In this document: one piece after another, positions 8,542 to 49,804 of the stretch
How positions within the stretch are numbered: the stretch's first letter is position 1
How the letters are laid out: each line of letters opens with the position of its first letter
DNA from: a virus
Virus record (IMG/VR): IMGVR_UViG_3300050011_000335
Span: 1 to 51,291 of that record
Direction: 5' to 3' (one strand)
Length of the DNA stretch: 51,291 nucleotides
The notes under the pieces: model-generated
The model's input: only the letters and a program-made list of their open reading frames with translations
Databases searched by the model: none
What the model was told of the DNA's origin: nothing
Made by a program: the position numbers and the translations under genes

Positions 8542-8552
8542 AAGTGAATTTT

Positions 8553-9410: not shown

Positions 9411-9415
9411 TCGTG

Positions 9416-9787: not shown

Positions 9788-9788
9788 A

Positions 9789-10737: not shown

Positions 10738-11189
10738 TATTCCTCCACATCTTCAGCATGAAGGATTTCTTCCCCTACTTTGATACCTCTATCTAGGGCG
10801 CTTTCTCTTTCTTTGGCAATTTTTTCCTTAAACAGGTTTTCGGAACGAATAGCTGCATCTAGAACCATGGCAATAATGTTAAGGTCTCCAATATTTCCTG
10901 ACATACCACTTTCTTGCAAAGTAGAGGTCCAAAAAGGGGGCCCCTTTATAAGTCTATTTTTAACTTGACAGAGAGCAAATGAAATATTACCCTCACTCTC
11001 CGATGCTTGAGCACCAAGGGAGCCGAGAAGCTCCCGGTACTCACGACCAGCCTGGAGTTGCCTTAAAGGATCCAAAAAACATCTAAAAATAAATGTGCCG
11101 GTATATGTCCCACCTAGTTCGCCATCTGTCCTGGGCATAATCCAAGTGGCTTCGGACCCATTAATAATGATATCGGTATCATTTTCCAT
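10737..11189 (-). CDS. possible tail assembly chaperone-like protein, 150 aa
   Basis: The product has the phrase PRTDGELGGTYTGTFIFRC near its N-terminus, then YRELLG, then FALCQVKNRLIKGPPFW, and ends in a charged helix (ENLFKEKIAKERESALDRG). I associate the pattern 'G-x-F-x-x-x-x-x-x-x-P', 'RELLG' and 'AxxLxxxKxRxxxxPPFW' with proteins of tail gene clusters that behave like tail assembly chaperones. There is no frameshift signal, unlike siphophage chaperones. The assignment is moderate at best. The start region overlaps the end of the HNH gene by 11 bases. Confidence 0.5.
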   Translation of the reverse strand: MENDTDIIINGSEATWIMPRTDGELGGTYTGTFIFRCFLDPLRQLQAGREYRELLGSLGAQASESEGNISFALCQVKNRLIKGPPFWTSTLQESGMSGNIGDLNIIAMVLDAAIRSENLFKEKIAKERESALDRGIKVGEEILHAEDVEE

Positions 11190-16773: not shown

Positions 16774-17280
16774 ATGCGTAAACTATTTACAGTGATTCTT
16801 TCATTGATCCTTCTGACCACTTCTAATTTGGCTTATAGCCGCATGGAGCGTGGCAGGGGAGGCCATGGCCCAGAAAGAGGCCGTGGAGGCTCCCATAGAG
16901 GCCCTGAGCGCGGTAGACCGGGTTATATCGGGCATCCCACCCACATTGTCTTTGGTAGGGCTCCTTATGGAGGTTGGCGAGGTAATAGGTATTATTGGGG
17001 AGGCCATAACTATTTTGTCTGGGCTTGGGGACCTTGGGCTCCATATTACGGATGGAACTATTATTACGGTTGGAGGATTGGCCTAAACTATTATGTTCCA
17101 GAAGGCCTAAGGTGCTATGCTGATAATCCAAGAGTTTCTGGTGAGTGGGCTGGACAAGACACCTACTATGCGTCAGACGATGCAATTAATAGTGCTTTAG
17201 ATTATTGTGCTAACGATCCTAATGTTACAGCTGTCAATGCCTCTAACGATTGTAGAATCAGGAACTGTGTTCGTTGGTAA
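16774..17280 (+). CDS. exported Gly/Arg- and Trp/Tyr-rich protein, 168 aa
   Basis: A signal peptide (MRKLFTVILSLILLTTSNLA) is followed by an RGRGGHGPERGRGG-type basic segment, then an aromatic stretch (HNYFVWAWGPWAPYYGWNYY), then a compact Cys-containing C-terminal domain (RCYADNP to CRIRNCVRW). The end domain resembles small secreted proteins of Gram-negative predators and their phages with 'S-x-x-x-A-x-x-x-A-L-x-x-C'. The location is likely periplasmic or surface. It converges with the - strand gene ending at 17281 with no gap. Confidence 0.65.
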   Translation: MRKLFTVILSLILLTTSNLAYSRMERGRGGHGPERGRGGSHRGPERGRPGYIGHPTHIVFGRAPYGGWRGNRYYWGGHNYFVWAWGPWAPYYGWNYYYGWRIGLNYYVPEGLRCYADNPRVSGEWAGQDTYYASDDAINSALDYCANDPNVTAVNASNDCRIRNCVRW

Positions 17281-17823
17281 TCAAGCAGCCATCCTTACAG
17301 ATAGAGTCATTTCAAATAATTCAGGATGAGCCAGAAATATATTTTCAAGATCGTTTGGAACTATATTTCCATTACCATAACCCTTTAGTACATATTCCAA
17401 ACCACAAGCCTTCAGATAGGCAACACATAGCTGACTACAGATCATTCCAGATGTATTCCAATTATTTTGTGATTTGATATTTTTGCCAAAAAGGTTACAA
17501 ATCCTTTCATATATGAAAAAGGGGTATTGGAGAAAACCATAAGAAATCTGAAGATCATTCAAAATAGACAAAAGTGCTTTATCTTTGATACTTTGGTCTA
17601 TCTTAATATTCCACACTTGATAACCCGAATTCATGTCATTCACATAATTAGTATCAAAACGATCAAATTCTACTCCACTTTGAACCGCCTCAATACACAT
17701 TGGAATGCCCAAAACATCGGGAGCAGTTACTAAACCATGATCAAATTTAGATTCAGTAAACCATTCGATGGCTTGTGCTATGAAACCCGTTTTGGCACTA
17801 ACTAGAACTATATGTCCATACAT
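17281..17823 (-). CDS. permuted NlpC/P60-like cysteine peptidase
   Basis: The 180-residue product has the order of permuted papain-like (YiiX/NlpC-P60) enzymes: an early His in SKFDHGLVT (His29), then the Cys nucleophile in GMICSQLCVAYL (Cys129), and a later polar residue in NIVPNDLENIF (Asp158). Family members hydrolyse amide bonds in peptidoglycan peptides or lipids. At the end of the tail-fibre cluster it could be a virion-associated wall-degrading enzyme for DNA entry. No signal peptide is present, so it is not an ordinary secreted lysin. Confidence 0.7.
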   Translation of the reverse strand: MYGHIVLVSAKTGFIAQAIEWFTESKFDHGLVTAPDVLGIPMCIEAVQSGVEFDRFDTNYVNDMNSGYQVWNIKIDQSIKDKALLSILNDLQISYGFLQYPFFIYERICNLFGKNIKSQNNWNTSGMICSQLCVAYLKACGLEYVLKGYGNGNIVPNDLENIFLAHPELFEMTLSVRMAA

Positions 17824-17824
17824 A

Positions 17825-18592
17825 TTAATTTAACTTTCCCCAGTCTATATTAATTCTCATTGTTCCATTTAAAGCACAAGGACGGTTATATACCAGTGTA
17901 AGATATAGCCCTGAAGGTAGAAACCCATATCCACCAATAGGATTTACTTCACACTCCCCAGCACATGGAGTTGCACCATTTGCTAAAGGCCAAAAATACC
18001 AGCCTTGGTTAGCAGCCGCCATGTCTATATCTGTATAAGTTTTAACCATCGGATAGTTTGGGAAAGCTTGTCCTATTGGAGCTGGCAATACTCCAGCTGC
18101 TATAATAGCTGCATCGGAAAGTGGAGCGGTTGCAGCAGGGTTCATAGCAAGAGCGACAGCCCAAGCTATACATCTGTCCGTATCATCCACTTCCACCGTA
18201 ACATAATCGTCTTTGTCATACAGCTCTGAAATGGCGTATCCACCTAAAACATACCTTCCATCTCCAGATCCAAAGGTTCCTGGTATTCTGAGAGATATCG
18301 TTGTTTGAGTAGCTGGAGCCGTTATTGTCGTCAAACCTCTAGCAAGTCTTAAATCTTTGTTGGTGTTTTCAAAAGCGGTTGTAACGGTAGAATTTGGACT
18401 TATGTTTCCAGCGGTCTTAAAGTAAGTTTCAAAGTCTGTAGTGTCTGCGGTATCAGATTTAGGCAAATTACATTCTAAAACAAACATGCCATCAAATGCT
18501 TTTAGTTCATAAGAATCTGTTAGATCTATCCACTGCATGGAAAGATTTCGACTGACACAGAAAGATTTTATTATTGCCCATGTTACTTGCAT
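17825..18592 (-). CDS. virion/fibre-associated protein, 255 aa
   Basis: The sequence is beta-rich with few Lys and many Thr/Ala/Gly. It has segments such as TISLRIPGTFGSGDGRYVLG and a Cys-containing segment (WPLANGATPCAGECEVNP), ending NGTMRINIDWGKLN. This composition and ending are typical of phage tail or capsid proteins that form beta sandwiches. AGAGGTTTAAT precedes the start. It follows the 599-residue repeat protein with one base between, implying a shared role. Confidence 0.6.
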   Translation of the reverse strand: MQVTWAIIKSFCVSRNLSMQWIDLTDSYELKAFDGMFVLECNLPKSDTADTTDFETYFKTAGNISPNSTVTTAFENTNKDLRLARGLTTITAPATQTTISLRIPGTFGSGDGRYVLGGYAISELYDKDDYVTVEVDDTDRCIAWAVALAMNPAATAPLSDAAIIAAGVLPAPIGQAFPNYPMVKTYTDIDMAAANQGWYFWPLANGATPCAGECEVNPIGGYGFLPSGLYLTLVYNRPCALNGTMRINIDWGKLN

Positions 18593-22801: not shown

Positions 22802-23476
22802 TTAATATTTCTCGGGGTTGAAATCTACCTTATTGCCTTTTGAAAGATTCTCAGATGCGGTCAATATCTGTAAGTTCCATGGGACATGAAGACCCCTTAC
22901 TAGTTTACCCTGCAATGGAATTATATGGTCTACTTGATGCTTAATTCCAGTTTCTTTAGTTAATCTTGCAGCTTTTACATAAATATCTTGAATTTCAAGT
23001 AGTTGAGTCTCATTAAGCCATTTAGGGGTGGCGTTTATTTTACAAGCCAATCTTTTTGCCGTTAAAGCATTGACCTTACCCGAATTGGCCTTTTTATATT
23101 CTTTTTGACGAGCATGGATCTCATCTTTATGTTTTGCCAAATAGTTAAGGTTGTAGGTCGCAGCCTCTTCTTTGTGTTCGGCTCTATAAGAAACTATTTT
23201 CTCTTTATTTTCAGCTCTCCATTTGGCATCAGATATTCTTTTTTCTTCTTCGTGTTCCGATTTCCATTTAGAAAAGTATACTGCCCGCTCTTCTTTACGT
23301 CCAGCATTGTAAAGAACCGCTTTGGCCAAAATAATTTCTTTGTTTTTATTGTAATATAGAGAATTGTAAATTTTTATACATTCTTTGCATCTAGATTCCA
23401 ACCCGTCTTTATGACCCCTATTTTTAGTAAATTCTACTGATTCTTTATCCTTTTTGCACCCAAAACACTGTTTCAT
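22802..23476 (-). CDS. HNH homing endonuclease, second copy
   Basis: The N-terminal ribbon (MKQCFGCKKDKESVEF, later RCKECIKIY) carries two CxxC pairs. A Lys/Glu-rich spacer with fewer repeats than the 11179-12051 copy follows (SEHEEEKRISDAKWRAENKE, AEHKEEAATY). The nuclease core QVDHIIPLQGK (His184) and HVPWNLQILTASENLSKGNK matches the first copy closely. The gene lies alone between two virion genes and is probably a mobile insertion. There is no visible canonical ribosome binding site. Confidence 0.85.
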   Translation of the reverse strand: MKQCFGCKKDKESVEFTKNRGHKDGLESRCKECIKIYNSLYYNKNKEIILAKAVLYNAGRKEERAVYFSKWKSEHEEEKRISDAKWRAENKEKIVSYRAEHKEEAATYNLNYLAKHKDEIHARQKEYKKANSGKVNALTAKRLACKINATPKWLNETQLLEIQDIYVKAARLTKETGIKHQVDHIIPLQGKLVRGLHVPWNLQILTASENLSKGNKVDFNPEKY

Positions 23477-37682: not shown

Positions 37683-38291
37683 TTATCCCGGAAGCTTTGG
37701 TTTAGACATTTGGTGGATTTGGTCAAGTGTCTGTTCATGAGCACCCTTAGTAGGCGCGGCTTGCTGCATTCTTTGCGCATTGCCTTGCATACGCTCAGCA
37801 TTACCCTCTGGAGTTTTAAGGTGAGCTTCTGCCTGAGCTTGTCCGGCTGCTTGATAGGCGGGTACGGCTGATGTAGCGCCAGGATGAGGTTGATTTTCGC
37901 CTTTGTCCATCTCTTTGGCTTTTTGACTCTTTTTGTGCCTCATCCAACCTACAAACTTGGCTAGTTTAATATGGCCCTTCATACCGGCTTCTTGGCTTTC
38001 AGCGCCAGCATTTTCTTTTTCGTGATCTTCTACGGCGTGCTCTACTTCTTCACCTAACTCCGCATCTGCTTTTTCATCTGGATTCGCAATGGCTTCTTCA
38101 GATTTCCCCATTTTGGCTTTAATAGCGCCATCGATCTTATCCGCAGACTCTTCAGAATAGCCTTCTCTTTTAAGCTTGGAGTGAATTTTGGCCCAATCGC
38201 CTTTTGCGAGATTGCTAGACTTATAAAGCTCTTCAGCTTTAGCCAAAACCATCTGCCCAGCTTCTCTTGGAGTATATTTTTTATCAGACAT
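37683..38291 (-). CDS. KYTPxEA-type linker-rich protein, 202 aa
   Basis: The first 20 residues, MSDKKYTPREAGQMVLAKAE, match the starts of the next two genes upstream (38325-38651 and 38654-39298). A charged helical body follows (KIHSKLKREGYSEESADKID), then acid linkers (ELGEEVEHAVEDHEKENAGA) and the phrase MKGHIKLAKFVGWMRHKK, also found in the 38654 product as MKGHIKLAKFMGRM. The end is Gln/Ala/Pro-rich and disordered. It looks like a small internal or scaffold-like virion protein. The function is unknown. Confidence 0.6.
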   Translation of the reverse strand: MSDKKYTPREAGQMVLAKAEELYKSSNLAKGDWAKIHSKLKREGYSEESADKIDGAIKAKMGKSEEAIANPDEKADAELGEEVEHAVEDHEKENAGAESQEAGMKGHIKLAKFVGWMRHKKSQKAKEMDKGENQPHPGATSAVPAYQAAGQAQAEAHLKTPEGNAERMQGNAQRMQQAAPTKGAHEQTLDQIHQMSKPKLPG

Positions 38292-38308
38292 AGTTTGTCC
38301 CCATATAA

Positions 38309-38320
38309 GCTAAGATTGGC
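38309..38320 (-). promoter_or_regulatory. CCAATCTTA motif copy
   Basis: GCCAATCTTAGC in the gap after the stop of 38325-38651, about 20 bases upstream of the ATG at 38291. Confidence 0.45.
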
Positions 38321-38324
38321 GATA

Positions 38325-38651
38325 CTATTGTTTAGCTTTTCTCTTGTCCAAAAAAGACCTTAAATTTTCAATACTTGACTTCTTAATACCCTTCAACTCT
38401 TCATTTTTCCCAAAGAATACACTAGGTCTGTCCATCGGTTGTCCAGGTTTCTTAGCTTTTGCCGTCTTAACTACTGCTTGACTTCCCACTTTCATAGGAG
38501 ATCCAGTATTTCCATTTGTGGGACTAATCACGCCTTCAACCGGAGTAATAGAAGTAGGTTTAAGGCCACCCATAGCAGATTTGGTCAATTCCTCAGCTTT
38601 TTGAAGAATTTTGATAGCCACTTCTGTTGGGGTATACACTTTAGAGGACAT
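38325..38651 (-). CDS. KYTPxEA-type linker-rich protein, 108 aa
   Basis: Begins MSSKVYTPTEVAIKILQKAE, the second member of the family of three. The rest is Pro/Gly/Lys-rich (GGLKPTSITPVEGVISPTNG, KTAKAKKPGQPMDRPS) and ends in a basic helix (SSIENLRSFLDKRKAKQ). Mostly disordered. It starts two bases after the previous stop without a clear Shine-Dalgarno sequence, so coupling is likely. Confidence 0.6.
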   Translation of the reverse strand: MSSKVYTPTEVAIKILQKAEELTKSAMGGLKPTSITPVEGVISPTNGNTGSPMKVGSQAVVKTAKAKKPGQPMDRPSVFFGKNEELKGIKKSSIENLRSFLDKRKAKQ

Positions 38652-38653
38652 AT

Positions 38654-39298
38654 TTAGGGAAGATTTGGTTTGATTTTAGAACTTTGCATCATTCGACCAA
38701 TGGACTGTTGCTTTGCAGCCCCAGTATCACCTAGTCTAGCCATAGCTCCACCGGTAGAAACGCCTTCTTTAGACTGAGGATTGGGTTTTGTAGCAATACC
38801 GGCCTCATGACCAGTTTCAGCTTTATCTATTTGTCCTCTTTTAGCCTCCATTCGACCCATAAACTTAGCTAGTTTAATATGGCCTTTCATGGGAGTCTCG
38901 GCTTTACCGAAAGGATTGCCAATTTGATCATTAATGGTGGGTGAAGGAGGAGGTGGAGGAGCGGACATATCATCTTTGGCCATAGGTTCTGGGATGTTAG
39001 GTTTGGGCATAGCCCTTGAATGCATTAAAGTGCGTTTAGCCGCACTTTTAGCTGCATATTTAGAATCGTCTACATCTCGTGGGCTAGGGGAGAAGGTGCC
39101 CCCTGCCGGATCCACTCCCGCAGCATTCCTTATGTGGGAACCCATCGTACTAACACCTGGACCCGAACGCTTACTACTGAGATTGACTCCTCTTTCATGT
39201 CCAGTCTCAGCCTTAGCCAAACTAGACATTCCATGCAATTCTTGGACTTTAGCCAGGACGGCCATAGCTGCTTCAGCGGGAGTATATTTTTTAGACAT
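38654..39298 (-). CDS. KYTPxEA-type linker-rich protein, 214 aa
   Basis: Begins MSKKYTPAEAAMAVLAKVQE. The body is low complexity with two copies of 'KAETGHE' (about residues 29-36 and 157-164), a Pro-rich run (MSAPPPPPSPTINDQ) and MKGHIKLAKFMGRMEAKRGQ. Together with its two neighbours it forms a tandem paralogous set that differs mainly in linker content. A virion-internal or scaffold role is inferred from position only. Confidence 0.6.
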   Translation of the reverse strand: MSKKYTPAEAAMAVLAKVQELHGMSSLAKAETGHERGVNLSSKRSGPGVSTMGSHIRNAAGVDPAGGTFSPSPRDVDDSKYAAKSAAKRTLMHSRAMPKPNIPEPMAKDDMSAPPPPPSPTINDQIGNPFGKAETPMKGHIKLAKFMGRMEAKRGQIDKAETGHEAGIATKPNPQSKEGVSTGGAMARLGDTGAAKQQSIGRMMQSSKIKPNLP

Positions 39299-39314
39299 AT
39301 TTGATCACCATGGT

Positions 39315-39325
39315 GTTAAGATTGG
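39315..39325 (-). promoter_or_regulatory. CCAATCTTA motif copy
   Basis: CCAATCTTAAC immediately after the stop of 39326-40312 and 17 bases upstream of the ATG at 39298. Confidence 0.45.
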
Positions 39326-40312
39326 TTATTCTAGACTTTCTACAAAATTTTGGATCGTGGACCAGTTTACTGTGGTAAGATCCTCAAAGGTATCGTTTTT
39401 ATTACTAATTATCTTGAGACCGCCCGTAAATCCGTCCCCATTGCCAAGCCCAACACTTTCTATATAGCGATGTGGCTGATTCAACCACCTAGACTCAACT
39501 TGGCCAGTTAGATTAACTTCACGACTCCATATGACCTGTCCAGCATCGGAATAGTCAGGATTAGGGAATAGCTTACCTGAAGAGATCATGCTTTCGGCAT
39601 ATCCGTCTTTTTCAAGAAGTACCTGTCTATACCTAAGTAAACTATAAACAACAATTGACCATAACCACAAAGTCGTATTTTGGTCCATAGCATTACAGGT
39701 TATTTTATAGGTTTCGGTCATAAACGTATGACCAATTTTAGCTTCATAGGTTTGATACTGAGGTATAACGGCATAAGCGGCTGCGCTTAAAGTCAATCCG
39801 GTCATCAAATTTACCTGGTTCATCATAGTTACGCTTTGGATCACGTAACCATTACCAGTAACGGGATCCACTAGAACCTGTCCAGGAACGATCATACTAA
39901 TATTCACATCAGACGAGAAAGTGAACGCACCTGAAATAGGATCATATGAACCCGGAGTGGGTTTAATAAGGAATGGGATCGGCTTATTGATATCGTTTGG
40001 ATATAGAGTTACACTTTCAGTTGAAAGATCTCCCATGTGTTTCATTTCAGATTTTTCGTTACTGGTTCCCATTTCAATAACAACACAAGGAAATTCTATC
40101 TTGTCATCTCTCTCAGACATGAAAAAATTAATACGGTTATTGGCCAACCACTGTTTGCACGATTCTATTTGAGAACCATAAAACCTTCGCATGTATTCAT
40201 TAGCGACCGTGTCACCAAGAATGTCATTCAATAACCACGGATTCTTGGCAATGTCCTCTAAACCTAATGTAATTGCTGCCTTGATGCGCAGATCTCCCAA
40301 AAATAAGCTCAT
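39326..40312 (-). CDS. conserved virion protein of the neck/tail region, 328 aa
   Basis: The product starts SLFLGDLRIKAAITLGLEDI, has KIEFPCVVIEMGTSNEKSEM near residue 75, a beta middle (GSYDPISGAFTFSSDVNISM) and an alpha/beta end (TLWLWSIVVYSLLRYRQVLL). I recognise the arrangement 'D-x-R-I-x-A-A-I-x-L-x-L-x-D-I ... V-P-C-(I/V)-x-I-x-x-G' from large phages, where it sits upstream of the sheath gene. That position suits a tail-completion, terminator or sheath-connector protein. No motif settles it. Confidence 0.6.
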   Translation of the reverse strand: MSLFLGDLRIKAAITLGLEDIAKNPWLLNDILGDTVANEYMRRFYGSQIESCKQWLANNRINFFMSERDDKIEFPCVVIEMGTSNEKSEMKHMGDLSTESVTLYPNDINKPIPFLIKPTPGSYDPISGAFTFSSDVNISMIVPGQVLVDPVTGNGYVIQSVTMMNQVNLMTGLTLSAAAYAVIPQYQTYEAKIGHTFMTETYKITCNAMDQNTTLWLWSIVVYSLLRYRQVLLEKDGYAESMISSGKLFPNPDYSDAGQVIWSREVNLTGQVESRWLNQPHRYIESVGLGNGDGFTGGLKIISNKNDTFEDLTTVNWSTIQNFVESLE

Positions 40313-40315
40313 GAG

Positions 40316-41131
40316 TTACCTACCTTGATATTTCTGCAATATTTGCGGAAGCCATACATTTGCCCATTGATCTTCTGCCCAAGTCTTCGTTTCTGGAAAT
40401 ATACCGGCTGCCTCTATAGCGTCTCTCATCCACTTACCATCGCCTTCCATAGCTGTTCTAAACGTAGTCATTGTTCTTTGTATTTTCCCAGTTTTTGGAT
40501 GCGGAGTTTGATAAATAGTGAGCCCAAATAGTCTAGGAGTAGTACCCTTACCATAGTCTTTACTGGGTATATCAAAGGAATGGAGCTTACCAAGTCTAGG
40601 ACTTCCCGTTTTGGAATCGATTTCTAACTTTCTGAGTGGAACGTTTTTGGCTTTTAAGAACGTTTTTATATCTTTGATACGCTCTTCTTGTTCTGCAAGT
40701 CTTGTAGGATTAAAGCTCTCAGATGACTTCCCTTGTTGAAAAGGTATAACTCGATATTTTTTACCCTTATTTGGTCCGTTCTGAACTTCTTTTATTTTGC
40801 CCTTACTTCCTTCTCTTTCTGTATGGAGCAATCCACCAGGAGGACCTTTCATATCCCACGCTTTTCTTCCCTCTTCTATATTGGCTGCATCTTTACTTAA
40901 AGTTATTTCCCAAAGATAATCGGTTATCTGTACAGCATGACTGAGATTGGCTTCATATTTTTCACGATCCCAGTCCGGAAGTTTTTTCTTGGTCTCTTCT
41001 AACATATGAAGATGTGCGGATTTGGTCAATCCCTCAACACCATTTTTAATATCCTTAGTAACTTCTTTAGTGAAATTTTCTAAGTATTGGGTAAGAGAAG
41101 AGATATCGATATCGACTTTAAAGTCCCCCAT
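40316..41131 (-). CDS. virion-assembly type protein, 271 aa
   Basis: AAAAGGTTGAT precedes ATG 41131. The N-terminal helix (SSLTQYLENFTKEVTKDIKN, then LTKSAHLHMLEETKKKLP) resembles the opening of HK97 gp10-like tail-completion proteins. A basic, Gly/Lys-rich middle follows (GPNKGKKYRVIPFQQGK) and a conserved-looking end (TTFRTAMEGDGKWMRDAIEA). Candidate roles are tail completion or a head-tail joint. Confidence in any of these is low. Confidence 0.55.
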   Translation of the reverse strand: MGDFKVDIDISSLTQYLENFTKEVTKDIKNGVEGLTKSAHLHMLEETKKKLPDWDREKYEANLSHAVQITDYLWEITLSKDAANIEEGRKAWDMKGPPGGLLHTEREGSKGKIKEVQNGPNKGKKYRVIPFQQGKSSESFNPTRLAEQEERIKDIKTFLKAKNVPLRKLEIDSKTGSPRLGKLHSFDIPSKDYGKGTTPRLFGLTIYQTPHPKTGKIQRTMTTFRTAMEGDGKWMRDAIEAAGIFPETKTWAEDQWANVWLPQILQKYQGR

Positions 41132-41132
41132 A

Positions 41133-41345
41133 TCAACCTTTTGGCGGCTTCACAGGAACCCCAGAAGGCCCCATTACACGCCCCTCTTTCATATTAATGA
41201 ATCTAACTACCCCATTGTTGTCGGTGACCTTCATTTGGCCCTTACCATTAATACCGTGCTCTGGGATTGGATCCTTAGCGACGTGGGTAGTAGTATGGCT
41301 AGTTGGAAGCTTCGAAGCCGAGGGTAGTCCTGCTACCCCACCGCT
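41133..41345 (-). CDS. -1 frame extension of the mCpol-like gene (70 codons, no own start)
   Basis: The frame is open from within the end of 41333-43408 to TGA at 41135-41133 and reads as genuine protein (KLPTSHTTTHVAKDPIPEHG, MKVTDNNGVVRFINMKEG, VMGPSGVPVKPPKG). It has no ATG, GTG or TTG before an internal ATG at about 41229, which would discard the conserved-looking first half. The frame relation and the slippery heptamer at 41351-41345 indicate translation by -1 frameshifting, giving a 758-residue product. An independent 32-residue protein from the internal ATG (AAGGGCCAA upstream) is the alternative. Confidence 0.65.
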   Translation of the reverse strand, partial: SGGVAGLPSASKLPTSHTTTHVAKDPIPEHGINGKGQMKVTDNNGVVRFINMKEGRVMGPSGVPVKPPKG

Positions 41346-41351
41346 TTTGGG
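41322..41351 (-). promoter_or_regulatory. -1 ribosomal frameshift signal (C CCA AAA plus hairpin)
   Basis: In the zero frame the codons are GAC CCA AAA GCG GTG GGG TAG. C-CCA-AAA (41351-41345) fits X-XXY-YYZ. After the 6-base spacer GCGGTG, GGGTAG (41338-41333) pairs with CTACCC (41327-41322) around CAGGA, placing a hairpin over the zero-frame stop. Confidence 0.7.
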
Positions 41352-43408
41352 TCCTGAGAACCCTCTTGAGGTGCTGCCTGTGGAGGTCCTGCTGCTGGGC
41401 TCTCTTGTGGAGCAGCTTGTGGGGGTTGTTCCTGACCAGCTGCCATATTAGGCTCTAGACCAAGAAGCTTACAAAGCTCAATCATAGATTTTAACATTTG
41501 GATACAAGAATTATATAAAGGCTGATTTTGTTCTTTGGTTGCTTCTAGGGATGCCTTGTTGGCCTTGAATCCAGCAAGAGTCTGGCCTACCATATCCAAT
41601 ACTTGTTGTTTTTTCTGTTCGTTTGCATGGTCGTCTAAGCCACCCTGGAGAATGGAGGACATATCAGGTTCATCTTGTCCCAATTCTCCATTTTGTCCTG
41701 GAATCTGAGCATCTTGTCCCAATTCTCCATTTTGTCCCGATTCTTGTCCCGATTCCTCACTCTTAGGACAATTGGGACAATTACAATCATGCGTCTGTTC
41801 TTGAAAGTCTTTATCGGAATCAGAAATATCGTTTTTCTGAGCATCTCCAAAGTTATCAGTAACAGCGGTTCCTTCTTCCATCTGATCGCCTTGAGGCATT
41901 TCCGTATTGTCAATTTTCTTGGCAGCTTGAGCTGGAGTCTGAGCGCCCGTGCCAGGTTCCTGATCCAACAAGTCCAAAACTTCTTCAGCAGTCTCATGAC
42001 CCTGTAAATTTGGATCACCTTGACCAGTTTGTCCTGGCTCATTTTCAACAGCATCAGAATACATTTCTTGACACTGTGGACAATCATCCGGATGTTGAGC
42101 GCCTTGGTCTTCTACTGCCAAATTGCTTTGATCTTTTTGATTAGCAACGCAATCAGGGCAGTTACAGATGTGATCTTGTGGCGCTTCAGGATTGGCCTGA
42201 GCTTCAGTAATATTTTCAGTTTGACAATAAGGGCAATCGTCGATACCACCAGTATTTTGTTGTGAGGCATCGTATTCCTTGCAAGCTGGGCAGTCATGCA
42301 TTCCAGCCGTTCCATCTGCGTTTTCTTCTGCATCTAAATCTTGGCAATAAGCACAATCATCTGTACGATTATCTTCGTTATCGGCGCAATAAGGACACGG
42401 ATCATTAGTGTTTGGTTCAGTATGTGGAGCGTGCTTACCTTCTTCAGATTTATGTAACTCACAAACGTATTGTTCAGATTTTCCCATTTTTGTCCCCACT
42501 TCGATAGAAGACAGATCGTCATGGAGTTTTTTTGCTTTTTCTCCTGCTTCTTTTTGTGCTTTGGCATGCCCTTCATCATTTACGAAGAATTGGTCGGTAC
42601 GATCTGAGGGATGCTTAAGATGCGTTTCGTAAGCACTATGCATGGCATCTGCTTTATGGTGTCTATTAGAAATCTCTACATTTCCTTTTTTATTACTCCA
42701 TCCAGCATTTTGAGGGTCAAATGCCTGTGCCTGACTTCTATGTTTTGAGGCTATATGTCCATGGACATAAGAGGGAACTTTCAGCATTTCTTCATGGCTA
42801 ATAGTGGGCTTAGTTTTACCACCCGTAACTCTAGTTAGGGTATCAACTGGGCGTTTGGTTACAACTTTACCCTCTTTAGCGTTTGTAGATAAAGCTTTTG
42901 TGTCACTTTTATGTAGATCGCACAACATATTTTCCGCCTTTGCTAAGTAGGCTTCACTCAGCTTATATTCATCTGGAGTGGCACGTTTTTCACGAACCCT
43001 CCTTTTAGCTTTTTGGATATCTTTTTTTAGTTTATTGTCAAAATAAACAATACGGTCTTTTCCCCTGAGCTTAGCTACTAGAAGTGAGGTACCAGCTTCG
43101 GAAAGAGATTTTCCAACACCAACAGAAATGGTATAGCCAAAAGATTTTTCAACACTCTTTCTAAGGGCTTCTAGTTTTTTTAAAGCATCTTGTGGAACTG
43201 CTGCAGTAAACTCATCTCCACCGCCAGACACTTTAACTCCGCTTACATCCTTACACCAATGCAAAATAAAATCTTGTGCCGCATCAATTCTATTGGAAAT
43301 CTTATGAAGCTCATCGACATCATTAGCAAGCACGGCTCTGCCAACTTTTTTCCCGACCCCATCCCCATCTGCAGCTATGTAAAACATCCCAGGCTTAATT
43401 TTTTCCAT
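41333..43408 (-). CDS. mCpol/GGDEF-like domain fused to a zinc-knuckle linker protein, 691 aa
   Basis: AAGGAGAAGCA precedes ATG 43408. Residues about 8-124 match a minimal nucleotide-polymerase (mCpol, Palm/GGDEF-type) domain: FYIAADGDGVGKKVGRAVL with metal-binding Asp14/Asp16, then VKVSGGGDEFTAAVP (62-67), GYTISVGVGKSLSEAG and AKLRGKDRIVYFD. In this fold two-metal catalysis joins nucleotides into cyclic or linear oligomers. A basic helical region (about 125-330) follows. Seven CxxC knuckles (about 338-547: CPYC, CAYC, CPAC, CPYC, CPDC, CPQC, CPNC) are joined by acidic linkers, and repeats such as GQNGELGQD and a helical end follow. Short 'KAE/KSE' words recur. The product is probably packaged or assembly-associated, given its neighbours. 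The end carries a -1 frameshift signal. Confidence 0.75.
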   Translation of the reverse strand: MEKIKPGMFYIAADGDGVGKKVGRAVLANDVDELHKISNRIDAAQDFILHWCKDVSGVKVSGGGDEFTAAVPQDALKKLEALRKSVEKSFGYTISVGVGKSLSEAGTSLLVAKLRGKDRIVYFDNKLKKDIQKAKRRVREKRATPDEYKLSEAYLAKAENMLCDLHKSDTKALSTNAKEGKVVTKRPVDTLTRVTGGKTKPTISHEEMLKVPSYVHGHIASKHRSQAQAFDPQNAGWSNKKGNVEISNRHHKADAMHSAYETHLKHPSDRTDQFFVNDEGHAKAQKEAGEKAKKLHDDLSSIEVGTKMGKSEQYVCELHKSEEGKHAPHTEPNTNDPCPYCADNEDNRTDDCAYCQDLDAEENADGTAGMHDCPACKEYDASQQNTGGIDDCPYCQTENITEAQANPEAPQDHICNCPDCVANQKDQSNLAVEDQGAQHPDDCPQCQEMYSDAVENEPGQTGQGDPNLQGHETAEEVLDLLDQEPGTGAQTPAQAAKKIDNTEMPQGDQMEEGTAVTDNFGDAQKNDISDSDKDFQEQTHDCNCPNCPKSEESGQESGQNGELGQDAQIPGQNGELGQDEPDMSSILQGGLDDHANEQKKQQVLDMVGQTLAGFKANKASLEATKEQNQPLYNSCIQMLKSMIELCKLLGLEPNMAAGQEQPPQAAPQESPAAGPPQAAPQEGSQDPKAVG

Positions 43409-44306
43409 TGCTTCTCCTTAGGGTCTCAAGAAGCATAAAAATATTGTCCTCGGTCCAATTACGTGAAAATTTTAAGCGCACACCATCTTCGGATTTTTTA
43501 ATCCATATTTTAGAGCCCATATTTTCTCCAAAACACAGACAACCGCTAAAACTTGAATCTCCAAAAATTGTCTTGCCACAAGAATCGCAATCAATCGATT
43601 CCGACTTTGACATTTCCACATGATGCTCTTTAGGCTTTTTCTTACGAGCTATGAAATCTTTGAGAGGAGAGCCCTTTTTAGGAGCGGCTTCTTTTTTAGT
43701 GATATCCTCAGGCTTAATTTCAAGTGGGGTATGTACTGGAACGGGAGTTGGCGGTTCTTGCACTTTAATAGTCTCATTCAATTTGGCCATCATCATTTTG
43801 TGGATAGCTTCACGCTGAGCCAATTTGTCCTCAACCACCTTACCAACCAATGAATGGAGTTCCATCCTTTCATCAATTAGTTTCTGGACTTTTCTGTCGA
43901 TATTTTCCGATTCTTTCCCAGGCTTAGAAAGCTCTTCTAAATCGTACAACTCAAATGTGGACAAGAGAATAATTCCCAAACCAGGAATCGACCTATTCAT
44001 AAAACTATAGACTAGCTTGTTGTCACTATAAACCGATCCAGTATAATCATCAGCAGCATTCTTATTGAGGCGAATATAGGCGACTTTACCAAAAGGCAAT
44101 TTTATGTCTTTATGGGAGTTGATTTCCATAGGAGACAGCTCGCTAATTAGCATAGCCATCACAGCTCTAGGAACCACCTTCAAACCAATTCGAATTTCTT
44201 CTGGATCCAATACGCTGTTACTGCCGATCTTATAAAGATCTGCTGACTTAGCAAGAGTTCCTAAAAACTCGTCATCTAAGATGGTATTAAGTAGCAAATG
44301 GGCCAT
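43395..44306 (-). CDS. virion-region protein with C-terminal zinc ribbon domain, 303 aa
   Basis: I use ATG 44306 (MAHLLLNTILDDEFLGTLAK), one base after the upstream stop; a TTG further up is in frame but lies inside that gene. Residues about 1-160 form a globular domain. A Pro/Lys-rich linker (EEPPTPVP-like, KKGSPLKDFIARKKKPKEHH) leads to CDSCGKTIFGDSSFSGCLCF and then FSRNWTEDNIFMLLETLRR. This end matches a small phage family with a 'CxxC ... F-x-G-C-x-C-F-G' ribbon that I have seen as a stand-alone protein, so the gene is likely a fusion. It overlaps the mCpol gene by 14 bases. Confidence 0.6.
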   Translation of the reverse strand: MAHLLLNTILDDEFLGTLAKSADLYKIGSNSVLDPEEIRIGLKVVPRAVMAMLISELSPMEINSHKDIKLPFGKVAYIRLNKNAADDYTGSVYSDNKLVYSFMNRSIPGLGIILLSTFELYDLEELSKPGKESENIDRKVQKLIDERMELHSLVGKVVEDKLAQREAIHKMMMAKLNETIKVQEPPTPVPVHTPLEIKPEDITKKEAAPKKGSPLKDFIARKKKPKEHHVEMSKSESIDCDSCGKTIFGDSSFSGCLCFGENMGSKIWIKKSEDGVRLKFSRNWTEDNIFMLLETLRRSNGKN

Positions 44307-44307
44307 A

Positions 44308-44757
44308 TTAACTTTGCGTGACGTAAGGGCCGGTTTCTTGAACAATCCAGGTTGGGTCTTCCATTATATAAACTAAAAGAGTTGCTGCAGAGGTAATAAC
44401 GTATTGATTATTGCTCATAGACAGATAAGTCCAAGCATTAGGGGGGCACGGAACGCCAACATTACCAGAAGCATCAATAGCTCCAGGAGCCAAAGTAACA
44501 ATAGTGCTTCCACCAATTACAACCGATCCTACAGCACCAGCATTGTTATAAACTGCAAGATTTAGGCCTAAAAGAGGAAGGGCTGTTCTTGTAGTAGGGG
44601 TGGTCGTCCAGGTAGTAGATGAAAGAGGAATTGGCAAGAGCCTAGGTCCAACCGTTAAAGTCTTTTGGCCACCAGATGCCGGGTTATACTCTATAGAGTC
44701 AATTTGACTAGGATCTTGTAGAAATTTAATATCTATTGCACGGTTATTTTTCGCCAT
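44308..44757 (-). CDS. small beta-rich virion protein, 149 aa
   Basis: Thr/Pro/Gly/Val-rich (TLTVGPRLLPIPLSSTTWTT, VGSVVIGGSTIVTLAPGAID) and ending WIVQETGPYVTQS. The composition suggests an Ig-like or jelly-roll decoration protein of capsid or tail. No motif. The start has a weak ribosome binding site (GGGGACCTT), and a CAATCTTAC motif lies in the preceding gap. Confidence 0.6.
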   Translation of the reverse strand: MAKNNRAIDIKFLQDPSQIDSIEYNPASGGQKTLTVGPRLLPIPLSSTTWTTTPTTRTALPLLGLNLAVYNNAGAVGSVVIGGSTIVTLAPGAIDASGNVGVPCPPNAWTYLSMSNNQYVITSAATLLVYIMEDPTWIVQETGPYVTQS

Positions 44758-44780
44758 AAGGTCCCCTAAAGGTTATATCA

Positions 44781-44790
44781 GTAAGATTGC
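44781..44790 (-). promoter_or_regulatory. CCAATCTTA-type motif copy (GCAATCTTAC)
   Basis: Eight of nine match, between the stop of 44790-45752 and the ATG at 44757. Confidence 0.35.
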
Positions 44791-45752
44791 TAAGTTTGTC
44801 CGTCTGGAATCCCATCGGCGGTAAAAGAGATCATGTCAACGCTAATAGCTCCTGGAGAGGGCTTAATAGTGTCCAAAGGCTCCTGGACAGCTCTTTTGGG
44901 AGTTGTGGAGGCAGATTGATTCTTAGGATCGCCTCTAGCTTGACTGTGGTAGACGTACTCCCTCTGAATTACAGCGTAATAAGCTAATCTCTCAGGAGTC
45001 CTGACACCATTCTCCGTAATATTGGTCATTCGGGTCTCTTTCGGCAATTCTACAATATAGTGATATGCTTTATAGAGATAACGTATTGAATATACTCGAC
45101 CTTTTCCAGTCTCGGGATCAATTCCTGGACTTTTACCACCTGGCAACCAATTAATGTTGCCATCAGAAGTTATGCAAAAATCAAGCCCTTGTGTATAAGA
45201 AATATTCCTACTATCAATAATAGGTATCTCTAACTCAATTATGGGGAACATAGGCACATTAGTACCAACTTCGTAGGTCATTTTTTGGTAATTTGACACC
45301 TTGACATTGGCTTTGGGATCGGACACATAAATGCGATCACCGGGAGCCATATAGATACGGTTACCGTCATCAACAGGAGCAGTGTTTACGGATCCAGCGA
45401 CAGACTTGGTCTTATTGTAGAAACGAGGGAGAATAAGTCTGCTAACGGATGGATCTACAATTCCCCCGTCAGTTCTTTCCTTCTTGGTGGTATTGTCAGT
45501 CTCACATCCCGTAAAAGTGCCAGCATATACATAAAGCATTCCATTTGAAGTCAGGACATCCAACCCATCACGACGATAATCGCCACGATCTTTTAATCCA
45601 ATAGGAGAAGGCATAGCTTTCCAGTGGCAGTAGTCAATTCCTTGGGAAGTAACAAAATCGTCGTCAAAAAGCAAATTAAAGCTGTGTTGTGTCAGAGGAT
45701 TCCATTGATTAATATCTTGAATCTGCACTCCATGTGGGGGCCTATCACTCAT
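44790..45752 (-). CDS. conserved large-phage virion protein, 320 aa
   Basis: CCTAGGAGATTTAT precedes ATG 45752. The product is beta-rich and has phrases I associate with a conserved late protein of large phages: GIDYCHWKAMPSPIGLKDRG, YRRDGLDVLTSNGMLYVYAG, GLDFCITSDGNINWLPGG, and RVYSIRYLYKAYHYIVELP. It probably takes part in the neck or head-tail interface. An endonuclease gene is inserted directly before it and overlaps its start by eight bases. Confidence 0.65.
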   Translation of the reverse strand: MSDRPPHGVQIQDINQWNPLTQHSFNLLFDDDFVTSQGIDYCHWKAMPSPIGLKDRGDYRRDGLDVLTSNGMLYVYAGTFTGCETDNTTKKERTDGGIVDPSVSRLILPRFYNKTKSVAGSVNTAPVDDGNRIYMAPGDRIYVSDPKANVKVSNYQKMTYEVGTNVPMFPIIELEIPIIDSRNISYTQGLDFCITSDGNINWLPGGKSPGIDPETGKGRVYSIRYLYKAYHYIVELPKETRMTNITENGVRTPERLAYYAVIQREYVYHSQARGDPKNQSASTTPKRAVQEPLDTIKPSPGAISVDMISFTADGIPDGQT

Positions 45753-46431
45753 ATAAATCTCCTAGGAAGTCTAAGCAACGTTTAACACAGTCTTCCTTAT
45801 CAATATTCCAATCCTGTTCTTTAATATGAAGAATTCGAATTTTTTTTGATAAAAAATAATCATCTTTAATTTGATGATAATTTGCGATATCCTCTTCTGG
45901 CCAATATTTTCTATTCCTACTTTTTCTTAATCCCTTAAAAGAATGCCAATATTCGCCATCAAATTCTATCCCCTTATTTCCAATTCTAATATCTAAATCA
46001 AAGCCTTTTATGTGAGGCTTTCCTTCTATTTTAACTTTCACATCCCTAAATTTTTTAGCATCGGGGTAAGCAAGTTTAATTAAAGACAACAGTTCTTTTT
46101 CTGGTAAAGAAGTTCCTTTAGGAGATTTCATATGTTTACAGACTATATCCATTACCCTCATTCTGTTAGCAGCTTGATAAGCGGAATTATTACTTAATTC
46201 AAACTCTCTACGACTTTTATATAGATATGCTATTTCTTGAACTTTTTCAAGAGACCAATAAGTAAAGACGGTCTCCATATGAGAACAAATTTGATCCATT
46301 ATTCCCCTTCTTTGTGCGGCAGCCTGAGCATTCCTACTCCCTATTTGAAATTCCAAACGAGTCCTATATCTTAAAGCTTCTAGGGCCACTTCTTCATTGG
46401 TCCATTTATGTGGCTTGGCCCTTTTACTCAT
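45745..46431 (-). CDS. Vsr-type (EDxHD-like) homing endonuclease, 228 aa
   Basis: ATG 46431 has GGAGAAAACTA upstream; a longer in-frame start has none. Two N-terminal repeats of about 40 residues (KWTNEEVALEALRYRTRLEF with GIMDQICSHM, and YWSLEKVQEIAYLYKSRREF with VMDIVCKHM) are DNA-reading repeats seen in phage endonucleases. The nuclease domain has DLDIRIGNKGIEFDGEYWHS, then YHQIKDDYFLSKKIRILHIK, the Asp/Glu-Asp-x-x-x-His arrangement of very-short-patch-repair-fold homing enzymes. It cuts DNA to promote its own spread. It sits snugly between two late genes with overlaps on both sides. Confidence 0.8.
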   Translation of the reverse strand: MSKRAKPHKWTNEEVALEALRYRTRLEFQIGSRNAQAAAQRRGIMDQICSHMETVFTYWSLEKVQEIAYLYKSRREFELSNNSAYQAANRMRVMDIVCKHMKSPKGTSLPEKELLSLIKLAYPDAKKFRDVKVKIEGKPHIKGFDLDIRIGNKGIEFDGEYWHSFKGLRKSRNRKYWPEEDIANYHQIKDDYFLSKKIRILHIKEQDWNIDKEDCVKRCLDFLGDLYE

Positions 46432-46783
46432 TAGTTTTCTCCAAACACATCTTGGATATTTCACACAACTTGCTATCCGTACTAGCATGTAGAGTAGACA
46501 GACCTTTGACTACTTCGTTTATACTCATTTTTCTTTTCAAATCTTCTAGTCGTCTTTCTAATCTAAAACCGCTAATGCTATTATTGGCATTAACCCTGAT
46601 ATCGGCAATACAACCAACTCCGCTTCTAATCATTCGCTCGATCTGATCGACAAAATGGTCAATCCTGGGATCTAAGGGGTCATAGCTAACCAGAATCTCT
46701 TTAGCCCCAACTATTTGGTGCTCCAATGACATGTTTGGATCAAATTCATATTCGTGATCGGTACAAATAATTTTAACGCACAT
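46424..46783 (-). CDS. hypothetical late protein, 119 aa
   Basis: The product (CVKIICTDHEYEFDPNMSLE, AKEILVSYDPLDPRIDHFVD, then basic RLERRLEDLKRK) mixes short strands with helices and has three Cys. No family recognised. Its start is preceded by GAGGATCTTATAAT rather than a Shine-Dalgarno sequence. Its end overlaps the endonuclease start by eight bases. Confidence 0.55.
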   Translation of the reverse strand: MCVKIICTDHEYEFDPNMSLEHQIVGAKEILVSYDPLDPRIDHFVDQIERMIRSGVGCIADIRVNANNSISGFRLERRLEDLKRKMSINEVVKGLSTLHASTDSKLCEISKMCLEKTNE

Positions 46784-46784
46784 A

Positions 46785-47264
46785 TTATAAGATCCTCACA
46801 CCCTTAAGGCCAGAACTAAGAGCTTTCTCAGAAACAGCTGCGCTAATAGGGGTCACAAACTCTCTAGGAGAATCCAAATGACGAATTACAAGATGGTTGT
46901 TTTCGATAGTGCCATTCGCAGATCCAACCTTAATACTTTGCTTAGTGACAAAGAATTGGACATCATTACCGTTTTGGATAGAATAAACGTCATGACCCGA
47001 TTTACGAAGGGTGTCGGTTAAGAAATGTGAATGGCTTTCGGCGCTGAGCTTAAGCCCTTCACTTTTCATGATCATTGGTTGGAAGTTCGGGAAACGTTGT
47101 TCAATGGTATAACATAGGATAGCTTGATGACTAGCTGCTCCCAGAACTTGATCTCCCATAACTGCCAAATTCAGTCCACCCTTAGTTTTGGTGAGATTGA
47201 CCGGCTTACCGTCCAACATTCCAAAAGGTTCAGTTGATGCAATATCGTTTTCAAGTATTTTCAT
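46785..47264 (-). CDS. hypothetical late protein, 159 aa
   Basis: A globular alpha/beta protein (LNLAVMGDQVLGAASHQAIL, HFLTDTLRKSGHDVYSIQNG, VQFFVTKQSIKVGSANGTIE). It contains one PMIMKSEGLKL word of the recurrent K-[S/A]-E type seen in neighbouring virion proteins. No family recognised. It starts one base after the small gene at 47266. Confidence 0.55.
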   Translation of the reverse strand: MKILENDIASTEPFGMLDGKPVNLTKTKGGLNLAVMGDQVLGAASHQAILCYTIEQRFPNFQPMIMKSEGLKLSAESHSHFLTDTLRKSGHDVYSIQNGNDVQFFVTKQSIKVGSANGTIENNHLVIRHLDSPREFVTPISAAVSEKALSSGLKGVRIL

Positions 47265-47265
47265 A

Positions 47266-47421
47266 TTATTTATCCAACTCTTTCTTTATTTCTTTTTTAG
47301 CTTTTTGTCTTTCTAAAGTTTTAGAGTTCTTTTTGACAGGCATGCATAGGTAACAGTTGCACCAATAACCGCCATTGATCATATAGTTTTTACGTTTTGC
47401 GTTTGAACCATATGGTTTCAT
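47266..47421 (-). CDS. small basic Cys protein, 51 aa
   Basis: ATG 47421 lies one base after the stop of the 793-residue gene (TAATATG). The product MKPYGSNAKRKNYMINGGYW is followed by CNCYLCMP and a very basic helix (KKNSKTLERQKAKKEIKKEL). The three close Cys suggest a metal knuckle, the rest nucleic-acid contact. Filling this gap exactly, with tight junctions on both sides, supports it as a gene. Confidence 0.65.
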   Translation of the reverse strand: MKPYGSNAKRKNYMINGGYWCNCYLCMPVKKNSKTLERQKAKKEIKKELDK

Positions 47422-47422
47422 A

Positions 47423-49804
47423 TTATTTCTTATCCGAGAACAGAGTTCTCAATTCCTTATTATCGTCAATATATTTCTTAAGAGAGTCTCCGCTAAGAGC
47501 CAAAGCTTTACTAAGCGACTCGCTTTTATCCAATAACTGCTGACCAGTGGTAGTTAGCTTATTTCTCAGGAATTGGGCTTTCCCCTCATCTGCTTTATCT
47601 TGGGAAGTGGGGTTTTTAGGTCCGTCCATAGTCGTATGATGTGTGTTGTTACCACCCATAGAGTTATGGTGGCCATTAATAGTATAATTACCAACCTTAA
47701 CACGATATTGTCCTTGTCCATCTTGAGCACCAGCTTTGTGAGGAGTAAATACAGATTCGGCCTTAACTCCAGGAAGCTTACTTAGCCCAGTCACGAATTG
47801 GTGTAAATGACCAGATGCAGCATTAGCATGGGAACCTATAAGCATAGCTCCAGCAACTGCTGCATTCTTAAGGGCACCTTTTTCAAGAGGTTTCTCAGCT
47901 TTACTAATAGAAGATTCGCTTTTCTGAGTAGGAATGTAAGGACTATGAGCTTTTTTATGAGCATCTTCTTTGCCCCATTCAAACTCTTTAGGTTTTTCTG
48001 GAGACGGTTGTCCTAATTTCCAATCTTTATTTTTTTCAGAATATCTTCTCATATGTCCAGAATAGTTACGAGCGTGTCCTTCTATGGCATCCAAGCGTAC
48101 ATTCTTTTTTGCCCTTTTTTCTTCGGGATTTGGTGAACCAATGAGGCGATCCTGATGTCCAGCATGAAGCCCGGCTGCATAAGCATGATCTTCATGGGTT
48201 AAATTTTTATGTTCTGGATGATCATGAGAATCGTAGATATTGTTGCCAGATGGAGCTTTTCCTATGATCTTGTTTTTAGAATGTTCTTTACTTCCGCCCC
48301 AACCGACAGGTTTATTTGGGACAACTTTAGCTTCAACTGACCTAATTCGTTCAGTTGATGGCAGTTTTTCTTCAGCCTTCGCCACTTTCTCAGGCAGCTT
48401 CTTTCCTTTAGTTGCCTCATCCCATTCATGTACTCCAGCTTCTCCACCCAACGCTTCTTTTCCTGCTTGAGTGTGACCCCAACGTCTTTGGGCTTCTGAA
48501 ACGAAAGGCTTCATGAGAGGATTTTGACCAAGAATTTCTTCAGATTTTACAACAAACTTATTTGCAGCGATATCTTTAGCTGAATTTCTCATATTTTGCC
48601 AAGAATTTTTCAATCTTTGATGCGATTCTTTGGGAAGAAGGTTTCGACTTGTCTTATCATGAACAGCATCTCTTACATGATTAACAATCTCTTCCTTCCA
48701 TTGCTGATTACTTAATGGATTTTTACCCGAATCACTATATCCTCTATTTTTAAGAGATTGACTTATATGCTTTACATCCTCGGGATGAATATGGGACATT
48801 AAGGTGTCCAAAACATGGTTTCCTTTTTCATCCCCATGTTTGTATCTGACTTGATTCATAGTATGATGAAAGGCTTCATGTTCTTTATTGATCTGCGGAT
48901 TCCTATTTGGAGCGCTATTTTTATGAGCATCTAAATTTATAGATGGAGTAGATCCCTTTCCAGCGTTGTTTACCATGGTAGTACCTGCACTTTTGGGACT
49001 CAATGCTTTATTAGATACTGCATTCGATACCTTTGTTTTATGTTCTGAAGAAATTTGAGGCATAACCTTATTCGTCCAGCTACGACCAACTATATTCCCC
49101 TGTCTCTCAGTTGCAACATTGGCTACTTCTTGATCTGGTCTGGAACTAGTACCAAGTTTAGGGAAAGTAATTCTTCCTTGATCTTTTTTTAATTCAATTT
49201 CATTACTTTCAGATTTTGTAACAGGAATATTTGCCTTAGCTGTAAAGTCACTTTCATCAGGAACTGTTGGCTCAGTGGTATCTGGCTTATGATGATAAGT
49301 TTTTAAGACTTTGGGACCCTTTTTTAACTCTGCCGGACCAAATTCAATACCGGCCTCATGCGCCGTTTTAGCTCCACTATTTTTAATATTTTGCCAAGTA
49401 TTTTGGTCCAATGAAATATGGGGAGTCCATTCTGTCGTAGATGGAAGACCCATATGGGCAAATTTACCATTATGCTCTTTTAACTTATCTGCAGAATTGC
49501 CTTTTAGCTTGAGAACAAAAACGTCGTTTCCAAAACGATCTTTGAATTGTCCTGGCTCTATTTGGGTATTTTTGGCATCGGGAGGATTCAAGGGAAGGTG
49601 TTGGGCAAGTCCATGAATGGAGTGTGGATGGTCTTTTTGATGATCAAAATCTTTAATAGTAGAGTGATAAGAAATACCATTATCGGGACGACTATCTTGG
49701 CCGTTGATCTTAACTGGATGTCCGAGCAATATTCCTTCATTGGCCATAGCGGCGTAGTCTTCGGGAGATTCGGCTTTGAGGAGATTAGGCAACTTGTTCT
49801 TCAT
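47423..49804 (-). CDS. 2H-phosphoesterase-like domain fused to HExxH and linker regions, 793 aa
   Basis: Residues about 28-172 look like a 2H phosphoesterase: GISYHSTIKDF (His47-x-Thr49) and EWTPHISLDQ (His129-x-Ser131), separated by strands (DVFVLKLKGN), the active-site pattern of LigT/ThpR and of the anti-CBASS nuclease Acb1. Near residue 309 HEAFHHTMNQV is a HExxH zinc site, with a possible third ligand in WKEEIVNHVRD (371-372). Later regions are His/Lys-rich (GHMRRYSEKNKDW, YTINGHHNSMGGNNTHH) and disordered, with repeated 'KAE/KSE' words. The product looks like a polyprotein-type virion or injected protein. Catalysis is unproven. It starts after a weak ribosome binding site. Confidence 0.7.
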   Translation of the reverse strand: MKNKLPNLLKAESPEDYAAMANEGILLGHPVKINGQDSRPDNGISYHSTIKDFDHQKDHPHSIHGLAQHLPLNPPDAKNTQIEPGQFKDRFGNDVFVLKLKGNSADKLKEHNGKFAHMGLPSTTEWTPHISLDQNTWQNIKNSGAKTAHEAGIEFGPAELKKGPKVLKTYHHKPDTTEPTVPDESDFTAKANIPVTKSESNEIELKKDQGRITFPKLGTSSRPDQEVANVATERQGNIVGRSWTNKVMPQISSEHKTKVSNAVSNKALSPKSAGTTMVNNAGKGSTPSINLDAHKNSAPNRNPQINKEHEAFHHTMNQVRYKHGDEKGNHVLDTLMSHIHPEDVKHISQSLKNRGYSDSGKNPLSNQQWKEEIVNHVRDAVHDKTSRNLLPKESHQRLKNSWQNMRNSAKDIAANKFVVKSEEILGQNPLMKPFVSEAQRRWGHTQAGKEALGGEAGVHEWDEATKGKKLPEKVAKAEEKLPSTERIRSVEAKVVPNKPVGWGGSKEHSKNKIIGKAPSGNNIYDSHDHPEHKNLTHEDHAYAAGLHAGHQDRLIGSPNPEEKRAKKNVRLDAIEGHARNYSGHMRRYSEKNKDWKLGQPSPEKPKEFEWGKEDAHKKAHSPYIPTQKSESSISKAEKPLEKGALKNAAVAGAMLIGSHANAASGHLHQFVTGLSKLPGVKAESVFTPHKAGAQDGQGQYRVKVGNYTINGHHNSMGGNNTHHTTMDGPKNPTSQDKADEGKAQFLRNKLTTTGQQLLDKSESLSKALALSGDSLKKYIDDNKELRTLFSDKK

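Follow-up and report, generated by a model that had tools for sequence, protein, structure and literature searches.

The evidence assembled in this study identifies, in an IMG/VR virus record of 51,291 nucleotides (hereafter the window, meaning the whole stretch analysed), a 691-residue protein whose first approximately 125 residues are with near certainty a true minimal CRISPR polymerase (mCpol) domain. The mCpol domain and the polyvalent-protein strategy are each already known, and it is their combination, encountered here among the particle-building genes of a phage, that we did not find in the literature examined. We propose that the protein is a virion-associated cyclic-dinucleotide synthase that would be delivered at infection and would there perturb host nucleotide signalling, and we give this account, taken in full, an even chance of being correct.

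Domain identity and predicted active site

The segment singled out in the first-pass annotation (positions 43037-43408) comprises exactly codons 1-124 of a minus-strand open reading frame, 41333-43408, which starts with ATG and encodes 691 amino acids. The start codon is placed 5 nt past a strong Shine-Dalgarno sequence (AAGGAG-AAGCA-ATG), and the first 14 nt of the gene are shared with the end of the virion-block gene upstream of it. The DGDG and GGGDEF motifs from which the annotation had derived an mCpol-type domain are present at residues 14-17 and 62-67, and the profile comparisons bear the derivation out: the Pfam mCpol family PF18182 matches residues 10-122 (E 9.1e-16; 58.7 bits against a curated cut-off of 26.4 bits; profile positions 1-113 of 114) and the NCBIfam mCpol family NF033576 likewise matches above its cut-off (E 6.5e-14; 52.6 against 40). 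A phmmer search of PDB sequences with the window protein returned both Panoptes mCpol crystal sequences, that of OptS at E 1.1e-7. The features concerned are as follows.

41333-43408, minus strand: whole gene of the 691-residue virion-block protein with N-terminal mCpol (open reading frame; syntenic orthologues in L002, L004, L055, L026, L032, L033, L034, L073, L078 and others)
43414-43419, minus strand: Shine-Dalgarno sequence AAGGAG of the mCpol gene (from the sequence)
43034-43408, minus strand: mCpol Palm domain, residues 1-125 (PF18182, NF033576, AlphaFold2 model, match to OptS 9pd0)
43367-43369, minus strand: codon of D14, first metal-binding Asp, in DGDG, equivalent to KpOptS Asp6 (OptS alignment)
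43214-43216, minus strand: codon of D65, second metal-binding Asp, in GGGDEF, equivalent to KpOptS Asp57 (OptS alignment)

The AlphaFold2 model of the domain, computed from 24 homologues with the Mx1 row left out (mean pLDDT 94.8, pTM 0.86), has the predicted topology strand-helix-helix-hairpin-helix-strand-helix. The annotation had made its reading hang on whether the best structural match would be a catalytic protein; that match is Panoptes OptS, a catalytic one, ranked first by both Foldseek and VIA-align (9pd0: Z 18.4, 1.6 Å, 118 residues) and followed by GGDEF domains, nucleotidyl cyclases, Y-family polymerases and Cas10, all at Z about 13-14. With the GGDEF diguanylate cyclases the domain thus has a related Palm fold and a GGDEF-like hairpin in common, yet it matches mCpol far better, and the identity of a standard diguanylate cyclase is rejected because neither the window protein nor the window record is matched by PF00990 (GGDEF). 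A chance occurrence of the motifs is also rejected, being contradicted by the HMM matches, the predicted fold and the synteny alike. PHROGs gave no significant family for the 691-residue protein, and tblastn with the window protein no matches among 50,697 phage records, Mx1 included. Scanning of the window proteins with Pfam and PADLOC recognised no 2TM-beta (OptE) effector, Acb protein or defence partner; a weak PADLOC match to CARF_HEPN_mCpol falls on the same mCpol domain.

The likeness to Panoptes OptS (9mnr, 9pd0, 9nwn) extends from domain family and fold to individual residues. D14 and D65 align with Asp6 and Asp57 of KpOptS, named as the metal-binding pair in PMC12657218, and K113 and K117 align with near-invariant lysines of the mCpol/OptS alignment. 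The two base contacts of OptS are S30 and N34, according to PMC12657230; the serine is kept in the window protein (S38) and the asparagine is changed to aspartate (D42), such that base preference and product may differ from those of OptS. PMC12657218 describes S30 as a position that varies among mCpol proteins. In contrast to OptS, the window mCpol is phage-encoded, is fused to a virion-type protein and, as the tree described below suggests, groups apart from the cellular domains.

Separately, an mCpol-like fold is seen in BFVD entry A0A6J5L1I5, an uncharacterised protein of an uncultured Caudovirales phage that scores TM 0.86 against the window domain.

The virion block and the phage mCpol family

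That an intact domain is encoded by a phage within its virion gene run, as the annotation had it, agrees with the origin of the window from a virus record and with the conservation of the block in Myxococcus phage Mx1. In the window and its relatives the mCpol genes are encoded among late virion genes, in the head/neck part, and the relatives exhibit a fixed gene order of 318 aa, 155 aa, 348 aa, mCpol gene, 266 aa and 344 aa. The following window genes of the block are referred to here.

47423-49804, minus strand: multi-KSE protein, 793 aa, whose syntenic counterpart in L002 is the SLT-transglycosylase protein
43395-44345, minus strand: upstream virion-block gene, 316 aa, with KSE motifs and Cys pairs, overlapping the mCpol gene (synteny)
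40316-41131, minus strand: downstream conserved virion-block gene, 271 aa (synteny)
39326-40312, minus strand: neck/terminator-like protein, with a sub-threshold SP10_terminator match, and phrog_1000 (profile searches)

Gene order is kept at about 70% identity in the mCpol domain for L002-L005 and at 77-78% for L055. In L002 the block follows, at a distance of ~7 kb downstream, the gene of a major capsid protein (467 aa) that is 46.5% identical, over the full length, to the capsid protein of Mx1, and Mx1 itself carries a matching virion block, closed by the tail sheath gene. L055 (PLEQ01000059.1) is filed as a Deltaproteobacteria MAG contig; since its content is an Mx1-like phage block, we take it to be a phage contig, whose host link to that MAG may or may not hold. 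This Deltaproteobacteria MAG, from a bog, holds two different Mx1-like mCpol phage contigs, L055 and C461 (L073), which may reflect mis-binning or a host link.

Some further genes of the window deserve mention. Three free-standing HNH/endonuclease VII-type genes are inserted in it (45745-46488, 22802-23476 and 11179-12051, all minus strand), and other homing-type genes occur at different sites in L002, L055 and G008. The late-block end has a gene (17281-17823, minus strand) with a weak enoyl-CoA hydratase-like match (phrog_1128, E 3e-9). Roughly 2 kb separate a DNA invertase/resolvase gene (5273-5875, plus strand) from a tail fibre gene (1763-3286, plus strand), and the two may together give a switchable fibre.

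The family was assembled by searching the viral collection with a profile of the window, L002, L004 and OptS domains, which gave L022-L028, and by reaching further relatives through capsid and neck proteins; Mx1 was reached via its capsid gene and later directly by tblastn with the L024 domain (E 3e-9). L007 was set aside, its short match falling in an ORF that is unrelated and contains no mCpol domain. About 15 distinct related phage contigs, the isolated phage Mx1 among them, carry mCpol in the virion head part, and a profile of eight phage domains finds it in 15 of 20 related records. A tree built from 16 phage domains and 12 cellular ones (OptS included) parts the two sets by a branch whose support (92/93) suggests, short of being decisive, a separation between phage and cellular mCpols.

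Loss of the catalytic aspartates was looked for in close relatives, and both are kept there. The window clade retains D14, D65, K113 and K117, as do L022, L023, L024, L025, L026, L027, L032 and L073, at about 30-77% identity; L011 (DAD) and L033 (DFD, GGDQ) also keep both aspartates. Within the window clade, where synonymous change is unsaturated, the dN/dS of the domain is 0.03-0.15, indicative of purifying selection. The expectation of activity does not carry over to the whole family. Asn replaces the first Asp in L034 (G019), and all four residues are replaced in the Mx1 protein WNM70340.1 and in one relative, G010, as expected once selection for catalysis is lifted; WNM70340.1 is still homologous to mCpol (PF18182 E 4.6e-4; phage profile E 2.6e-21). 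The G008 orthologue is without mCpol altogether: it starts at about the module junction and keeps the Cys-rich and C-terminal parts. The major capsid proteins of G008 and L002 are 86% identical, and the profile of eight phage domains finds no mCpol elsewhere in the G008 record. Activity is hence not universal and the function dispensable. Considering that the carrier stays where the domain is absent, and that the active site is usually kept elsewhere, the mCpol appears to be an accessory enzymatic module; by these comparisons the carrier behaves as the constant piece and the mCpol as an optional one, its active site mostly retained where present.

The carrier and its candidate processing sites

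Past the mCpol domain, the 691-residue protein divides into the parts below.

42914-43033, minus strand: conserved basic helix after mCpol, residues 126-165, closing with the KAE/KSE junction (alignments)
42902-42940, minus strand: module junction, KAE (157-159) and LHKSD (165-169) (alignments)
42464-42913, minus strand: variable segment, residues 166-315 (alignments)
41759-42406, minus strand: CxxC-rich, zinc-knuckle-like region, residues about 335-550 (sequence and alignment)
41450-41683, minus strand: C-terminal helical-looking segment, QTLxxFKANK...IQMLKSMIELCKLLGL (alignments)

The variable segment is present in the window, L002 and L078 and absent in L004 and L055. The fusion to a zinc-knuckle linker described in the annotation is real as regards the CxxC repeats (approximately residues 338-548); it is lineage-specific, the linker of L026, L032, L033 and L034 being acidic, not CxxC-rich. 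Of the annotation's overall reading, the mCpol assignment, the intact active-site residues, the place in a head/neck virion block and the Cys-rich linker fusion all stand; the cyclic-nucleotide product and the effect on host immunity that it envisaged stay conjectural. The C-terminal helical-looking segment is conserved in the family, even in G008, and the G008 protein starts with CKLHK/CDLHK, similar to the LHKSD of the window junction. WNM70340.1, annotated as a hypothetical protein, is the syntenic orthologue in Mx1, with an mCpol-like N-terminus and the same C-terminal segment; it differs in the loss of the catalytic Asp and Lys residues and in an extra C-terminal part, and the phage has a separate GGDEF protein, WNM70324.1. 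The proteins of L022-L025 are larger and carry other regions (fusions read by eye).

The head-block proteins of both phages (window 37683-49804, minus strand; Mx1 13002-39282) are enriched about 5-7 fold in the tripeptide KSE. The late proteins of the window contain it 13 times, compared to 2.4 in shuffles, of which 0 of 2000 reach 13, and other orders of the same three letters 1-3 times. Independently of the window, Mx1 has it 15 times in the head block (2.2 expected), 0 times in the tail and 2 times elsewhere (2.0 expected). It is often found between modules. All members of the window clade have KSE or KAE at the junction directly past mCpol, and the window protein has further KSE tripeptides at 310, inside the variable segment, and at 320, just beyond it; directly after mCpol, KSE is absent in lineages such as L022, L026 and L032-L034. 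On these statistics we infer KSE to be a candidate prohead protease site.

Proposed role and alternative explanations

The domain, its modelled fold, its active-site residues and their conservation, the place in the virion block and the modularity of the protein are the direct support from which our proposal departs. The 691-residue protein would belong to the virion of an Mx1-like tailed phage, as a protein of the polyvalent type in which a catalytically competent mCpol would dimerise and make a cyclic dinucleotide from NTPs. The Cys-rich or acidic linker, together with the C-terminal helical segment, could tether the enzyme to capsid or neck; made late, it would be assembled into the particle, where in the window lineage the prohead protease would probably free it at the KAE/KSE site just past the domain. 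Entering the host with the DNA, the enzyme would add a cyclic dinucleotide that perturbs host signalling, most plausibly as decoy or antagonist for nucleotide-sensing defence effectors. A more tentative generalisation, which we put forward as possible and still rather unlikely, is that Mx1-like phages load their particles with synthases of the mCpol and, in several phages, the GGDEF type, inject them as infection begins, counter nucleotide-based immunity by decoy messengers, not by destruction or sequestration of those of the host, and free the enzyme through cleavage of the carrier at KSE by the prohead protease.

Other enzymes accompany the mCpol in these phages. NUDIX, ART-PolyVal, GNAT and kinase-like domains are found in the virion block of Mx1. 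Mx1 and G010 have a GGDEF cyclase gene next after that of the prohead protease, whereas in G013 and G014 the cyclase forms the last part of the protease protein itself; the GGDEF assignment is above cut-off with Pfam and below it with the NCBIfam GGDEF model. The loci of these GGDEF-type cyclases, with a GGDEF-like motif and adjoining or fused to the protease end in four Mx1-like phages, are listed here.

L006, 3174-3905 (Mx1 17173-17904)
L074, 13739-17536
L075, 5121-8831
L076, 6059-7333

Compensation by the GGDEF cyclase for a dead mCpol would fit Mx1 and G010 and is rejected as a general rule, for G008 has neither enzyme and G013 and G014 have both.

The co-occurrence of GGDEF-type cyclases lends some credit to an active cyclase serving host takeover, its nucleotide imitating or disturbing a housekeeping second messenger (e.g., c-di-GMP, c-di-AMP) so as to alter host physiology, or regulating a phage protein. 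So does a survey of 58 genomes from the phylum of the L055 MAG, in which nucleotide defence looks uncommon: a SMODS-family enzyme is found in 3 only and no mCpol outside phage contigs. We nonetheless regard host takeover as doubtful, because the synthase is of the Panoptes/Cas10 type, not a standard diguanylate cyclase, and because the sampled phylum may not be that of the true host and may hence be irrelevant. The same survey leaves a specific anti-Panoptes role unsupported by the sample. Such a device would supply an OptS-type cyclic dinucleotide that keeps host OptE off even when phage sponges are made, consistent with OptS being the closest relative of known structure in fold and sequence, with the conserved S30 equivalent and with the finding of PMC12657218 and PMC12657230 that cyclic dinucleotides hold Panoptes effectors off. 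The replacement of N34 by D42, the suggested position of the phage domains outside the cellular group, the failure to find host Panoptes in the sampled phylum and the failure to identify an Acb gene among the window proteins scanned all speak against it, and we judge it highly improbable.

A purely structural explanation would have the mCpol fold co-opted as a nucleotide-binding or structural part of head or neck, catalysis being incidental. The domain does persist in Mx1 and G010, where its active site is dead, and the gene position is fixed among virion genes; yet most lineages keep the whole active site though identity drops to about 30-45%, and in G008 the rest of the protein remains without the domain, which is therefore not structurally required there. 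Structural co-option alone is thus disfavoured by active-site conservation and the G008 deletion, and seems unlikely to us. The delivered synthase remains our preferred reading.

In relation to known systems, the Panoptes (OptSE) operon consists of two genes, whereas the window gene has virion-block genes as neighbours and an OptE partner was not found among the proteins scanned. The polyvalent proteins of Iyer et al. 2017 (PMC5512222) offer the closer parallel in architecture, an enzyme module fused to unrelated domains among virion genes, to which Mx1 adds its ART, NUDIX, GNAT and kinase-like domains; in that paper GGDEF is noted in injected proteins and use in signalling already proposed. 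Its main text makes no mention of mCpol, while in the phages studied here the putative cargo is a Panoptes-type synthase that turns up in many lineages. In the literature examined (the parts consulted of PMC12657218, PMC12657230, PMC5512222 and PMC7824862), mCpol is described solely as a prokaryotic enzyme of defence-type systems, and neither its combination with polyvalent proteins nor the recurrence nor the natural dead and deleted forms were found. If our proposal is true, phages also produce immune-type second messengers, by way of particle-building genes in which the mCpol active site has outlasted deep divergence. The family also shows that mCpol diversity extends outside bacterial genomes, with virion cargo as a candidate delivery route. 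Some phage genomes pair mCpol with a GGDEF cyclase in their particle-building genes. Mx1, as an isolated phage, and its relatives embody natural intact, dead and deleted versions of one module and so make a clear test possible.

A separate observation concerns L027 (IMGVR_UViG_3300009503_000022), where a 2002-aa ORF at 5667-11672 appears to combine ligase, mCpol, complete GGDEF and primase-like parts, the GGDEF match being strong.
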